From Lishizhenia tianjinensis (GTDB lineage Bacteria; Bacteroidota; Bacteroidia; Flavobacteriales_D; Crocinitomicaceae), in assembly GCA_943330745.2 (NCBI GenBank), contig CALQIX020000014.1:1-64000 (forward strand): DNA of 64,000 bases. Reading direction: 5' to 3'. Made by a program: the position numbers and the translations under genes. The notes below the pieces were generated by a model. It worked only from the letters and a program-made list of their open reading frames with translations, was not told where the DNA came from and made no database searches. Shown here in pieces: positions 13,456-19,296 of the stretch. Every line of letters starts with the position of its first letter. Position 1 is the stretch's first letter.

Positions 13456-14586
13456 ATGACATTTAAAGAACTAGATCTTTTAGAGCCGATCTTAAACGCT
13501 CTTGAAAAACAAGGATATTCAACTCCCACTCCGATTCAACAACAAGCCATTCCAATCATTCTTTCCGGATCAGATATCATGGGTTGTGCGCAAACTGGAA
13601 CTGGAAAAACGGCTGCCTTTGCTATTCCAATTCTTCAGAATTTAACGAAAAACAAACGCCCAGAAGGACGTCGACGAATCAGAACACTGATCTTAACTCC
13701 AACGCGTGAATTAGCTATTCAAATAGAGGAAAACATTAAGGAATATGGAAGTAACTTAGACATCCGTCATGCTGTTATCTTTGGTGGAGTGAGTCAATTG
13801 AATCAAATTAATCGACTAAAAAGCGGAATTGATATTTTAGTGGCAACTCCTGGTCGTTTACTCGACCTACAACAACAAGGATTTGTTGATTTACGCAGCC
13901 TAGAGGTTTTTGTACTTGACGAAGCAGACCGCATGCTGGACATGGGTTTCATTCACGACGTGAAAAAAATTATCAAACTCATACCAACTAAAAGACAAAC
14001 CTTATTCTTTTCGGCTACGATGCCCAAAGAAATAAAAACCCTTGCAAGCACCATTTTAACTAACCCCAAACAAGTGGTGGTTACACCTGTTTCCTCTACT
14101 GCCGAAACCATTGACCAGAAACTGTATCACCTACTAACCGCTCAGAAAAAAGATTTGTTGTTGCATTTGTTAAATGAAAGCAAAACCGGATCAGTATTGG
14201 TGTTTACCCGCACCAAACACGGGGCAGATAAAGTGGTGAAAATATTGATTAAAGCAAACGTTAAAGCAGCCGCAATCCATGGAAATAAATCACAGAATGC
14301 GCGTCAAAATGCGCTAAACAATTTCAAAAACAAAGAACTACGCGTTTTGGTAGCAACCGACATTGCCGCTCGAGGTATCGATATCGACGAATTAGCATTG
14401 GTGATTAACTACGATATTCCAAATATTCCCGAAACGTATGTGCACCGTATTGGACGTACAGGTCGAGCAGGAGCAAGTGGTAAAGCCATTTCTTTTTGCG
14501 ACAAAGAAGAACAAGCTTACATTCGCGATATTCAAAAACTAATTGGCTTGCAAATTCCGGTAGTTAGAAATCATCCATTTAGTTGA
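13456..14586 (+). CDS. DEAD-box ATP-dependent RNA helicase, RhlE-like
   Basis: This 376-residue enzyme unwinds short RNA duplexes using ATP in ribosome assembly or mRNA turnover. Motifs appear in order: Q motif [14 protein letters not shown], Walker [10 protein letters not shown] (I), PTRELA (Ia), TPGR (Ib), LDEADRML (II), SAT (III), FTRTKHGAD (IV), [10 protein letters not shown] (V) and [10 protein letters not shown] (VI). It ends ~15 residues after the second RecA domain and lacks the long basic C-terminal tail common in RhlE and DeaD, so it is a minimal core helicase. The start follows the usual TFKELDL opening. A degenerate single-domain relative lies 3 kb downstream on the same strand. 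Confidence 0.95.
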
Positions 14587-15542: not shown

Positions 15543-16748
15543 ATGATGTCAGAAGTTTTATCGTGGATGTTTTTTGTGATGACCGTTGGTTTCATTTTTT
15601 ACTGGTTAATATCCTATTGTTTTCTAAAAATAGGCTTCTATTTCAATGTAAGCGCTGGAGGCATAGAATTTTTTAGGATTTGGCTAAAGCCCCTGTTCAT
15701 ATTAAATTTTTCATGGTTTGTAATTATAGAAATTGTTTTTTCATTAGTTTACTGGACCGCCTTTATTCTTTTAAAAGTTTTACCTTTTGGCTCCCCGGCA
15801 ATATTATTTGTTAATGGATTACATTCTGACGATCCTGGAGTAATGTCTTGGTTGATCATTTCTATTATTATTTATTGTTTTGTGATGGTGCCCTATTTTT
15901 TTCTTCAACATAAGTTGAGTTTTTATTTTAAAAGAACGATATTCACTAAAATTACCAAATCGATTAATGCAAAAAACAGTAAGTTTCATGGTCAGTCTGC
16001 TAAACTAAAATTAGACCAAAATTTATATACTCAACTCGCTGCAAAAGATGAAACCATCAAAGAATGGATTAAAAATTCAATTGAGAACCATGAATCAAAC
16101 CCTGGTGATGAGCATAAGCGTTTTTCAATTAGTAATACAGCAACCGATCATATGTCATGGGAGATAAATAACATATCAGTAGAGTTTTATGAGGCTGAAA
16201 TCGCCTTTGACGGCACAATAAAAAAAATAGATAGTAAGGGAAATAATAGCTATAAATCAACTTTAGCAAAGGAATTATTTGATGGAATTGTGATTGTTGT
16301 AAAAGATATGTTCAAAGAACCTTGGGAACCAAATTTGTTTGAGACGGAGCGCACATTTATTGGGAAAGAAAAAAAGAATAGAATAATTCATGAGCAAAGT
16401 GTTTTAATAGGACTATATAACGAGCTTGTCTTCAAAACAATTTCCACGAAAACTCCCGCTGCATATAATGATAGTAAAATTGAACAATATAATAAACCTG
16501 AAAAACTTAAAATACAAACGGAATCTTTATTTCAATTTATCTTTTGTAATAAGAAAGATCTTTATCTTTTTTTAAAAACAGAATTAGATGGTACTGCTTT
16601 TGACCTTAATATGAATATTTCCGTAAATAAAAGTATAGAACTCTTCAAACAAGATCTATTATTGGTCGAGTCTGCAATGGGCGAAATAAAACAGATAATA
16701 CAATTTATTGAAGAGAATAATATTCAGTATGGTAAAGACGTGGCCTAG
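15543..16748 (+). CDS. Membrane protein of unknown function
   Basis: The product has 401 residues. The first ~145 hold about four membrane segments (around residues 7-30, 48-78 and 103-123 by hydrophobicity). The rest is a soluble, charged domain with a beta-rich middle (SVEFYEAEIAFDGTI, ELFDGIVIVV) and a helical end. The middle is faintly reminiscent of DUF3137-type membrane proteins, but I cannot confirm that. Two adjacent ATGs (15543 and 15546) are possible starts. It is AT-rich and lies in the accessory islet, followed by another small membrane protein, so horizontal acquisition is plausible. Confidence 0.6.
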   Translation: MMSEVLSWMFFVMTVGFIFYWLISYCFLKIGFYFNVSAGGIEFFRIWLKPLFILNFSWFVIIEIVFSLVYWTAFILLKVLPFGSPAILFVNGLHSDDPGVMSWLIISIIIYCFVMVPYFFLQHKLSFYFKRTIFTKITKSINAKNSKFHGQSAKLKLDQNLYTQLAAKDETIKEWIKNSIENHESNPGDEHKRFSISNTATDHMSWEINNISVEFYEAEIAFDGTIKKIDSKGNNSYKSTLAKELFDGIVIVVKDMFKEPWEPNLFETERTFIGKEKKNRIIHEQSVLIGLYNELVFKTISTKTPAAYNDSKIEQYNKPEKLKIQTESLFQFIFCNKKDLYLFLKTELDGTAFDLNMNISVNKSIELFKQDLLLVESAMGEIKQIIQFIEENNIQYGKDVA

Positions 16749-16841: not shown

Positions 16842-17207
16842 ATGAAAAATGAAATAAAAGAAATTTTTAGTGGTGTTTTTAGTAAATCACTACTAAACCT
16901 CATAGTTGGATTAGGAATTAGTATTTCTACAATTCTAATATTCGAACTTCCGAAAAATATTGGAGATTGGAGTAAAATTTATAACATTGGTGAGGGGGTA
17001 GTAATCCCTATGTGGTTTCCTTTGAAATGGATTGTGACTTCCAATCCTTTATTATTCTGTAATAGTTTTATCATTGGATTTCTAATTTCAAACTTACTTA
17101 TCAAAGAAATGCAAATTATAACATTTCAAAAAAAACTTTATCTATTATCGTTTATTATACTTTGGATACTTTCGGTACTACTATTTGCAGGAAATTTTTG
17201 GTTCTAG
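16842..17207 (+). CDS. Small membrane protein of unknown function
   Basis: This 121-residue hydrophobic protein has three likely membrane segments (about residues 13-34, 66-87 and 96-119). I recognise no family. It follows the 401-residue membrane protein by 93 bp on the same strand and is equally AT-rich. Its final codons merge with the remnant at 17206-17370, so its natural C-terminus may have been altered by the same rearrangement. Confidence 0.5.
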   Translation: MKNEIKEIFSGVFSKSLLNLIVGLGISISTILIFELPKNIGDWSKIYNIGEGVVIPMWFPLKWIVTSNPLLFCNSFIIGFLISNLLIKEMQIITFQKKLYLLSFIILWILSVLLFAGNFWF

Positions 17208-17375: not shown

Positions 17376-17445
17376 GTCTCCTCCCTAAGTCCCTCCTCAA
17401 AGAGGGAAAACTTCCTGCAACGAGGGAGGATTGAGGTGGGTGACT
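17376..17445. repeat. Intergenic repeat, copy 1
   Basis: A ~70-bp element with CT-rich and GA-rich halves that can fold back (CCCTCCTC with AAAGAGGG). It ends in a 35-nt segment at 17411-17445 that recurs at 17549-17583 with only two mismatches. The mix of direct and inverted repetition resembles the short dispersed intergenic repeats of Bacteroidota genomes. Confidence 0.7.
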
Positions 17446-17513: not shown

Positions 17514-17583
17514 ATCCCCCTTGATCCCCCTTCAAAGGGGAAACATAACTTCCTCCAACGAGGGAGGATTGAGGCGGGTGACT
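17514..17583. repeat. Intergenic repeat, copy 2
   Basis: The second copy of the ~70-bp element. Its last 35 nt (17549-17583) match copy 1, and its first half carries the corresponding inverted repeat (CCCCCTT with CAAAGGGG). It ends 11 nt before the -7 box of the next gene, so it abuts that promoter. Confidence 0.7.
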
Positions 17584-17594
17584 GTTAAAATCGC

Positions 17595-17602
17595 TACCTT
17601 TG
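17595..17602 (+). promoter_or_regulatory. -7 box TAccTTTG for the DEAD-box-like gene
   Basis: A perfect TAnnTTTG box ends 7 nt before the ATG at 17610, predicting a leaderless or nearly leaderless transcript. A TTG about 22 nt further upstream could serve as the -33 element. Confidence 0.6.
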
Positions 17603-17609
17603 CCAATAC

Positions 17610-18158
17610 ATGGAAAACACAGAACTTACATTGCGCATTGGAAAAGCACTCAAATCGGGACAATCCGTTTTGGGGGCAGCATCGTTCGAAGAATACAAAA
17701 ACCAATTAGTGGAATGGATAACGCTTTTTGTTCCACAAGCCGAGGAAGGTTCTCCAAGGGCCATCATCATTGCTTCATCTGAACAAGAAGCCCGAGAAAT
17801 CCATGAAATTATCACCGCCGGAACGCGGAGCCTAGATCTAACCGTTGACTTGGTAACTGAAAAAGGTAAAAAACTGCAACAGCGCAATGATTTATTCGAT
17901 GGAACAGAAATTATTGTGGGAACAGCACGTCGCATTTGCGAAATGTACTTCCAAAATGGATTCAATGTTTCTAAACTGCGGTTGTTCGCTGTATTGGAAA
18001 TGGAAACTCAAATGCGTCAAGGATTGAAAGGATATATTTTGCGCTTGGCCGAAAGTTTACCAAAATGCAAACAATTATTGTTGACCAAAAACGCTGACGA
18101 AATTCGAGTACAAGAATACGTGGAAGAAATGATTCCTTCAATTCAACTCATTGAGTAA
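17610..18158 (+). CDS. Degenerate DEAD-box helicase-like protein, single RecA domain
   Basis: The 182-residue product aligns by eye along its length with the first RecA domain of the RhlE-like helicase at 13456. GQSVLGAASFEEYKN (17-31) corresponds to the Walker A region, RAIIIASSEQEAREI (50-64) to motif Ia, GTEIIVGTARRICEM (98-112) to motif Ib, LFAVLEMETQM (125-135) to motif II, and KCKQLLLTKNADEI (about 155-168) to motif III. Every catalytic signature is changed: no GKT, PTRELA to SSEQEA, TPGR to TARR, DEAD to EMET, SAT to TKN. There is no second RecA domain. It should not hydrolyse ATP as a helicase does; a scaffold or regulator of RNA helicases is an inference. The frame is intact with its own promoter, so it is probably functional rather than a pseudogene. 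Confidence 0.65.
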   Translation: MENTELTLRIGKALKSGQSVLGAASFEEYKNQLVEWITLFVPQAEEGSPRAIIIASSEQEAREIHEIITAGTRSLDLTVDLVTEKGKKLQQRNDLFDGTEIIVGTARRICEMYFQNGFNVSKLRLFAVLEMETQMRQGLKGYILRLAESLPKCKQLLLTKNADEIRVQEYVEEMIPSIQLIE

Positions 18159-18159
18159 T

Positions 18160-19296
18160 TTATCCTTTGGTAATTGTGATTTCCGTTATCTCCGGATAAA
18201 TCCCTACCCTACCCGGAAAACCTAAATAACCAAATCCACGATTGACATATAAAAACTGTTGCCCCACCTGATACAAGCCCGCCCATTTTTTATAGCGCAA
18301 CGACACCGGACTCCATTTGATACCAAATCGCTCAATGCCAAACTGCATTCCGTGTGTATGTCCAGACAGCGTAAGATCAATGTCTGTGTCTAATACTTGT
18401 AAATCAAAATGGCTGGGATCATGAGAAAGTAAGATTTTAAGCACGGCGTCTGGAACACCTTTTAATGTATGTGCCAATTTTCCGCTCTGACGAAAGGGTG
18501 CTTTTCCCCAGTTTTCTACGCCCAAAAGCCAAATATCTTTTTCCAATTCGATTGATTCATTCAACAAAGGCGTAAAACCAATTTCGCGGTGTTTTTCAAT
18601 CAAAGATTTTAAATTCTGAACCTTGTGATCATCGGCTTCCCAACGCACATAATCCCCGTAATCATGATTGCCCAAAATACTATATTTTCCTTTTTTAGCT
18701 TGGATTCTTGAAAAAACGGGTTCCCACCCATCCATTTCAGAAGCGGTATTGTTTACCAAATCGCCCGTGAAAAAAACATAATCTGCCTCTAAGGAATTAA
18801 TTATGTCTATTGCACGCTCAACTTTCGCATGATTATTAAAAAAACTTCCTACATGAATGTCGCTTATTTGAACGATTTTTAATGTGTTCACTTCCTCCGG
18901 AAAATGAGGAAAAGAAAGTTGAATGCGGTGTGTTTTCCAATTCCAACGACCATAAAAAATACCAACCAATATTCCCAAAAACAACAATGTCGAAAGTGTC
19001 CAGCCAACAATCTTTAATGATTCATTTCCAGTCACGTGAAATAATAAACCGGGAACTAAATACATCATACCGGGAACGCCAAAGAGAATAAACGCGCCAA
19101 ATGCAGTAAAGCCATTTTTGAAATCATTGTGTTTGCGCTGACTGAAAAAATAAATGAGAAAACCGAATGAAAACAAAAACACAATCAATTGAATCCAACC
19201 GATGGTTTGCAAAATGATAGATGTTTCTGAAAGAAACGATTGAGTAAAAATCACTTGGGTAAATATGATCAAGCCAAAAATAAAGAGAAAAGGCAT
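18160..19296 (-). CDS. Membrane-anchored metallophosphoesterase
   Basis: The product has 378 residues. About four hydrophobic segments occupy the first ~140, followed by a calcineurin-like phosphoesterase domain. Its dinuclear-metal ligands are all visible: QISDIHVGSF (DxH), FTGDLVN (GD), ILGNHDYGDY (GNHD), LLSHDPSHF and LSGHTHGMQ (GHTH). The family hydrolyses phosphoesters; membrane-anchored members of this YkuE/YaeI type act on envelope lipids or nucleotides, but the substrate is unknown here. The in-frame TTG at 19311 lies within the promoter box, so the ATG at 19296 is preferred. Its end is one base from the stop of the converging helicase-like gene. Confidence 0.88.
   Translation of the reverse strand: MPFLFIFGLIIFTQVIFTQSFLSETSIILQTIGWIQLIVFLFSFGFLIYFFSQRKHNDFKNGFTAFGAFILFGVPGMMYLVPGLLFHVTGNESLKIVGWTLSTLLFLGILVGIFYGRWNWKTHRIQLSFPHFPEEVNTLKIVQISDIHVGSFFNNHAKVERAIDIINSLEADYVFFTGDLVNNTASEMDGWEPVFSRIQAKKGKYSILGNHDYGDYVRWEADDHKVQNLKSLIEKHREIGFTPLLNESIELEKDIWLLGVENWGKAPFRQSGKLAHTLKGVPDAVLKILLSHDPSHFDLQVLDTDIDLTLSGHTHGMQFGIERFGIKWSPVSLRYKKWAGLYQVGQQFLYVNRGFGYLGFPGRVGIYPEITEITITKG

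Follow-up and report, generated by a model that had tools for sequence, protein, structure and literature searches.

The gene at 17610-18158 on the forward strand of the window, by which we mean the whole 64-kb stretch of DNA that was analyzed, is an intact open reading frame of 182 amino acids from ATG to TAA, as originally predicted, and its product has the fold that DEAD-box helicases show in their first RecA domain (RecA1). This identity is firm. As for the mechanism, we infer, with a probability of roughly 0.4, a stand-alone RecA1 pseudohelicase that would act without ATP through its RNA-side face. The retention of the gene in many flavobacteria suggests that the protein now serves as a non-enzymatic binding part and not as an enzyme. 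Presumably, public annotation may well label such proteins helicases, and this would mislead.

At the level of the amino acid sequence, the similarity to DEAD-box RecA1 domains is weak, yet significant. The Pfam DEAD profile was matched with E=1.5e-5 and 25.3 bits, just below its curated cut-off of 26, and the NCBIfam RhlB model with E=2.3e-6 and 26.6 bits, its cut-off of 588 lying far above; sequence matches in the PDB included DBP5 (E=2.3e-8) and eIF4A (E=1.8e-5). The likeness to RecA1 of the RhlE-like helicase encoded at 13456-14586 of the window, which had been noticed by eye, was recovered with 20% identity over 128 amino acids at E=0.009, a value that holds for one single comparison. The AlphaFold2 model of the protein is of high confidence (pLDDT 93.8, pTM 0.91), and the 50 PDB matches listed by VIA-align show Z-scores of 24.2-27.1 with an rmsd of approximately 2 Å for 173-181 residues at 13-19% identity. 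Among the 50 matches listed by Foldseek, every title that names its molecule denotes a DEAD-box protein, and the others are pre-ribosome or spliceosome entries in which the chain is left unnamed in the title. As evidenced by the predicted model and by these structure matches, the protein has the RecA1 fold; the structure prediction that had been proposed as a check returned a confident DEAD-box RecA1 domain and no fold other than a RecA-like one. The fold is shared over the whole chain with the RecA1 domains of DEAD-box proteins (PF00270) such as Hera, CshA, eIF4A and Dbp10, and the arginine of their TPGR motif is kept. Unlike these helicases, however, the protein of the window has no RecA2 and has lost motifs Q, I, Ia, II and III.

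Aligned with canonical helicases, the protein reads ASFEEYK at motif I, where GxGKT is expected. The Q motif is unrecognizable, and the N-terminal helices that bear it in relatives are absent from the model. PTRELA has become SSEQEA in motif Ia and SAT has become TKN in motif III; the GG region reads EKG, so that the literal GG motif is lost, and TPGR is replaced by TARR with its arginine retained. The original prediction had the changes in motifs I, Ia and III right, but erred by one residue in motif II, where it had paired DEAD with EMET. DEAD aligns with LEME at residues 129-132, one residue before EMET, a register that fits the predicted strand 125-128. The second RecA domain (Helicase_C) is indeed missing, as had been stated: the frame comprises 182 amino acids, and a Pfam search at E≤0.01 yields DEAD alone. 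A helicase fold is thus found together with the loss of the catalytic motifs, and as judged from the alignment a catalytically dead, single RecA1 domain is supported. The features of gene and protein are collected in Table 1.

Table 1. Positions in the window of the pseudohelicase gene, its putative promoter box and the motif equivalents of its product.
Feature	Positions	Strand	Basis or remark
Putative Bacteroidota -7 promoter box TACCTTTG	17595..17602	+	7 nt before ATG; seen in relatives
Single-RecA1 pseudohelicase gene, 182 aa	17610..18158	+	Pfam and PDB sequence similarity; predicted structure and structure matches
Former motif I (Walker A), residues 24-30, ASFEEYK	17679..17699	+	alignment
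Helix after GG motif, residues 87-95, contains QQRND	17868..17894	+	rank 0.149 in members without GK[S/T]
TPGR equivalent TARR, residues 105-108	17922..17933	+	position 108 R or K in 120/123
Wedge-helix equivalent, residues 109-119, signature YxQNGxN	17934..17966	+	rank 0.029 in members without GK[S/T]
Former DEAD (motif II), residues 129-132, LEME	17994..18005	+	alignment

The original prediction further held that the gene is maintained and not decaying, and this was borne out by common orthologs, low dN/dS ratios and a confident predicted fold. Within the genus, 49 of 61 genomes, the own one included, match the protein of the window at E≤1e-8, some of these matches being fragments at contig edges only. 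In the own family, searched at 1e-6, the single-domain gene is present in 127 of 200 sampled genomes, that is in 129 matches less G066 and G166, whose sole match is a frame of 444 or 453 amino acids. A profile search of the order at 1e-15 gave matches in 297 of 299 genomes, many being ordinary helicases; among the matches listed, the single-domain frames are found in families f1, f3, f5 and f8 and score at least 156 bits, barring one fragment, and frames of more than 330 amino acids score below 140 bits. At 1e-42, matches were obtained in 28 of the 296 genomes sampled from the phylum, 24 with single-domain proteins (two of the own genus and 22 in family f17) and four with frames of 441-493 amino acids, and in the class 16 of 197 genomes match, 12 of them single-domain and four of 441-493 amino acids; the strict limits used for phylum and class favor near relatives, and the family may in truth be more widely distributed. 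In the named collection, the titles of the best 80 of 117 relatives are mostly those of Crocinitomicaceae or other Flavobacteriales assemblies. A cultured species, Taishania pollutisoli, is among these relatives, and some titles, of Chitinophaga, Chryseobacterium and Polynucleobacter isolates, look mislabelled. In eight genomes of the same genus that are 93-99% complete, the family profile finds only frames of at least 376 amino acids, so that the role of the protein appears dispensable in some species.

For the closest pairs, dN and dS are 0.0047 and 0.088 (window and L006) and 0.0071 and 0.198 (window and L096), corresponding to dN/dS ratios of 0.04-0.05. All other finite non-zero NG86 ratios printed are approximately 0.10 or below, with dS saturated in many pairs, including that of the window with L035. 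Both the spread of orthologs and the low dN/dS show that the protein is maintained by selection, and the search for orthologs, suggested at the outset together with the dN/dS analysis, found them to be widespread and not absent. A decaying pseudogene or a chance open reading frame would account for the loss of all catalytic motifs and for the eight genomes of the genus in which the gene is missing, but it is refuted by purifying selection in the close pairs and by the spread of orthologs, among them a full-length one in G189 that is 80% identical to the protein of the window. Start and -7 box are conserved, the predicted fold is confident, and we give this explanation practically no chance. 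A mobile gene was also considered and rejected. In a tblastn search with the protein of the window, no match was obtained in a plasmid collection of 72,556 records, and in the phage collection, queried with the relative L069, all 25 matching records are less than 60% identical, the 10 listed ones at 26.7-29.7% identity; the three annotated rows among the phage matches listed are named DEAD/DEAH box helicase.

Upstream of the gene, TACCTTTG is present as had been reported, but its spacing to the ATG is 7 nt and not 8. We take this element to be a putative Bacteroidota -7 box, and a box at this spacing would mean a nearly leaderless message. The same sequence occurs at identical distance in L096 and L125, and TACCTTTA is found in L095; farther upstream of the box, the sequences of L096 and L125 differ by eye. 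Note that the 64-kb window contains TAnnTTTG 41 times on one strand and 35 times on the other. The gap directly upstream of the gene contains a 37-nt direct repeat (17409-17445 and 17547-17583, 95% identical, spacing 138), of which a 15-base piece, with one mismatch allowed, has no other site in the own genome. Between the RhlE-like helicase and the pseudohelicase gene lie two open reading frames, 15543-16748 (401 amino acids) and 16842-17207 (121 amino acids), that have no Pfam match at E≤0.01 and look membrane-associated by eye. On the other side, the converging open reading frame ends at 18160, leaving the single base between both genes that had been described.

Loss of the nucleotide site is graded within the family. 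From 207 loci with a family frame of less than 270 amino acids, 123 with distinct last 120 residues were kept, and in 57 of these 123 distinct single-domain members GK[S/T] is retained in the aligned columns. The first residue of motif II is aspartate or glutamate in all 57 of them, versus 5 of the 66 others. On the tree, a minimum of five changes is required for motif I and of two for the motif II acid, and with so few changes the counts for the two motifs do not represent independent events. With GK[S/T] and an acidic residue in motif II, nucleotide binding is plausible in these 57 relatives, and the family at large might consist of unusual yet active ATPases or nucleotide switches in which other residues have taken the place of the lost motifs. 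We hold this to be very improbable, as the protein of the window retains none of motifs Q, I, II and III and DE is found at motif II in only two of the 123 members.

Descent was analyzed in two trees, the first with 60 members of less than 80% identity and the row of the window, and the second with 53 members of less than 75% identity, the long-branch members L064, L068 and L217 being excluded; both were midpoint-rooted for drawing. A structure alignment (A3) comprised 74 of 77 distinct relatives. The single-domain rows are found on one side of a branch with a support of 100/94, and the canonical helicases are set behind a long branch (0.88) with a support of 100/100. The nearest full-length rows are L227-L230 from families f14 and f89, whose order among each other and relative to the canonical group is settled by neither tree. 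These are two-domain proteins of 437-484 amino acids with a motif I of the GxGKTT or GxGKTTA type and DDAD, DDAH, DDAE or DGAD as motif II. Their Helicase_C matches are weak (22.7 to 34.6 bits), and by reading they are without ARGxD and HRxGR, the usual motifs of the second helicase domain. Decay of the second domain thus seems to have preceded its loss, an order of events that we infer from trees rooted at the midpoint. They may themselves represent a second pseudohelicase family, in other Bacteroidota.

A recent copy of the neighboring RhlE-like gene was rejected as the origin, with only 20% identity between the proteins and a tree that places the family by L227-L230 and not by L212. The own genome encodes five DExD helicases (L212-L216), two of which (L215 and L216, at G000:C11 and C21) are very similar proteins of 441 amino acids with DEVD as motif II, a pair that probably arose by recent duplication. 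At the L209 locus, the family gene is directly preceded by two frames of 237 and 140 amino acids that cluster with helicases and represent either a broken helicase or extra copies.

Conservation was expressed as a rank, the share of equal-length segments that are at least as conserved, using overlapping segments of one alignment and three samples: 15 canonical helicases, 37 thinned members with GK[S/T] and 23 thinned members without. For the canonical helicases, motif I and TPGR both rank at 0.006 and the wedge helix at 0.64. The corresponding values are 0.057, 0.044 and 0.126 for members with GK[S/T]. Once GK[S/T] is lost, motif I drops to 0.966, and high conservation is seen for the wedge helix (0.029), TPGR (0.128) and the helix after GG (0.149), but not for GG itself (0.256) or Ia (0.629). 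Unlike in DEAD-box helicases, conservation in these members has thus moved to the wedge-helix region, and the strongly conserved residues of the family include P49, R50, G98, R108, Y113, N116, G117, N119, R145 and S149. In DDX21, the wedge helix bends RNA (PMC7375243).

The shift of conservation from motif I to the wedge helix in members without GK[S/T] is what points to the RNA face. This reading is weakened by the loss of motif Ia and the literal GG, both RNA contacts in canonical enzymes, and by the acidic character of the protein of the window, whose pI is 5.2 (family median 5.6). As a hint of RNA binding, the isoelectric point was discarded as uninformative, given that the N-domains of 19 full-length comparators span a range from 4.7 to 10. 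Also, a protein might just as well be the ligand of the conserved face.

A dead RecA1 domain might also work through protein contacts and regulate a genuine DEAD-box helicase by competing for, or docking on, its partner or its RecA2. Pseudo-enzymes commonly regulate their active relatives, and the protein shares the fold of helicase N-domains, is acidic and has several DEAD-box proteins of the own genome as possible targets. In canonical helicases, however, it is the ATP-site side of RecA1 that faces RecA2, and the motifs Q, I, II and III of this side rank at 0.886, 0.966, 0.6 and 0.884 in members without GK[S/T] and are thus poorly conserved. Helicase-like genes besides the family gene moreover amount to only six rows (cluster 0) over 123 loci, the RhlE-like one of the window included, so that a steady helicase neighbor was dismissed. 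We therefore regard a partner or regulator of a helicase, a role raised in the original prediction, as unlikely.

More frequent in the neighborhood is a mazG-like gene, counted as a profile match within approximately 0.7 kb upstream of the family gene. Of 123 loci, 76 have this gene immediately before the family gene and 45 are without it, with two contigs too short, and in many of the 76 the two genes overlap by 1 or 4 nt. As this gene takes the upstream place in so many loci, the nearness of the RhlE-like helicase is a local feature of the window. Downstream, 51 of 123 loci encode a protein of approximately 124 amino acids, and each of the 51 also has mazG; the protein is missing in 69 loci, and three contigs are too short. 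The member tested (L081, 1459-1830) has no Pfam or NCBIfam match; it reads like the LRPILK and FTxEE proteins that go under the name of glyoxalase in Flavobacteriaceae. In 18 loci, place -2 is taken by a D-aminoacyl-tRNA deacylase (DTD), and likewise in 18 an RsgA-type GTPase is found at place -3. Among the 27 listed loci outside the mazG group, no common set of neighbors was seen beyond small groups of near relatives. These neighbors suggest, but do not prove, a role in translation or in ribosome quality control, and the hint is weakened by the position of the window gene outside the mazG setting.

The linkage itself could mean that the family is a nucleotide-handling accessory of the MazG-like pyrophosphohydrolase that senses or delivers nucleotides, with the copy of the window as a derived form; the overlapping genes and the retention of GK[S/T] in 57 of 123 members would be in line with such a role. 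It is nevertheless improbable. The linkage is missing in 45 of 123 loci, among them every f17 locus kept, and it occurs regardless of whether a member has kept the nucleotide site (L069, L102). In the genome of the window, mazG is located elsewhere, behind a gene that reads as tyrS-like, and it persists in seven of the eight genomes of the genus that lack the family gene, where neither the family gene nor the downstream partner is found within 1.5 kb on either side.

Returning to the pseudohelicase reading, a possible link to known proteins is provided by Cms1, a small DEAD-like protein. Its Pfam profile (CMS1, PF14617) is matched by four of 26 family members at E≤0.01, the best at 2.3e-4, and not by the protein of the window at this limit. 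Cms1 is a eukaryotic subunit of the U3-containing 90S pre-ribosomal complex, whereas the family is bacterial, and descent of the two from a common single-domain protein would be conjecture. Cms1 is named among the early factors that associate transiently with the 3' major domain in the SSU processome (PMC6579516). Another parallel is Utp25, a eukaryotic pseudohelicase of the SSU processome that is described as conserved and catalytically inactive (PMC9539457), with a helicase fold whose motifs are lost, as in the protein of the window. In Utp25, however, both RecA domains are present together with a long N-terminal region, whereas the protein of the window is bacterial and consists of one RecA1 domain. 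Among bacterial helicase relatives, PriA of Deinococcus radiodurans is termed a pseudohelicase (PMC4504706), but it is a replication-restart DNA helicase and not a DEAD-box protein. Pseudohelicases are thus already known, as exemplified by Utp25, and what is new here is a single-domain, bacterial one with intermediate steps still alive. Among the papers listed in searches of a mainly open-access literature, no description of this family was found.

The course of events may be pictured as follows. The ancestor would have been a two-domain atypical helicase, with GxGKT, DDAx and a degenerate RecA2, that lost its second domain. Many of its descendants probably still bind nucleotide without normal hydrolysis, and the clade of the window would then have lost nucleotide binding by giving up motif I and the acidic residue of motif II. 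With less certainty, the surviving function would reside on the RNA face that is formed by the helix after GG, TxRR and the YxQNGxN wedge-helix equivalent. By this face the protein might dock on RNA or an RNP, with ribosome assembly or the quality control of translation as the most likely setting. There it would keep RNA in place, bend it or bar access to true helicases, free of ATP. Half of an RNA helicase would in this way have become a protein that bends RNA or docks on an RNP independently of ATP, with a two-domain DDAx form, a single domain with GKT and one devoid of a nucleotide site as its living stages. Such a protein would be the counterpart, in bacteria, of the pseudohelicases of eukaryotic ribosome assembly; this proposal is tentative and somewhat doubtful as a whole.

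Pseudo-enzymes reveal which part of a machine stays useful without the engine. In the present family, the surviving series from two-domain atypical helicases to a dead half-helicase makes it directly testable whether hydrolysis, the second domain or ATP binding was lost first, and which followed. If the wedge-helix face is what works, a DEAD-box enzyme can be of use with nothing but its RNA-bending half, and an uncharacterized factor common to many flavobacteria would have been named.
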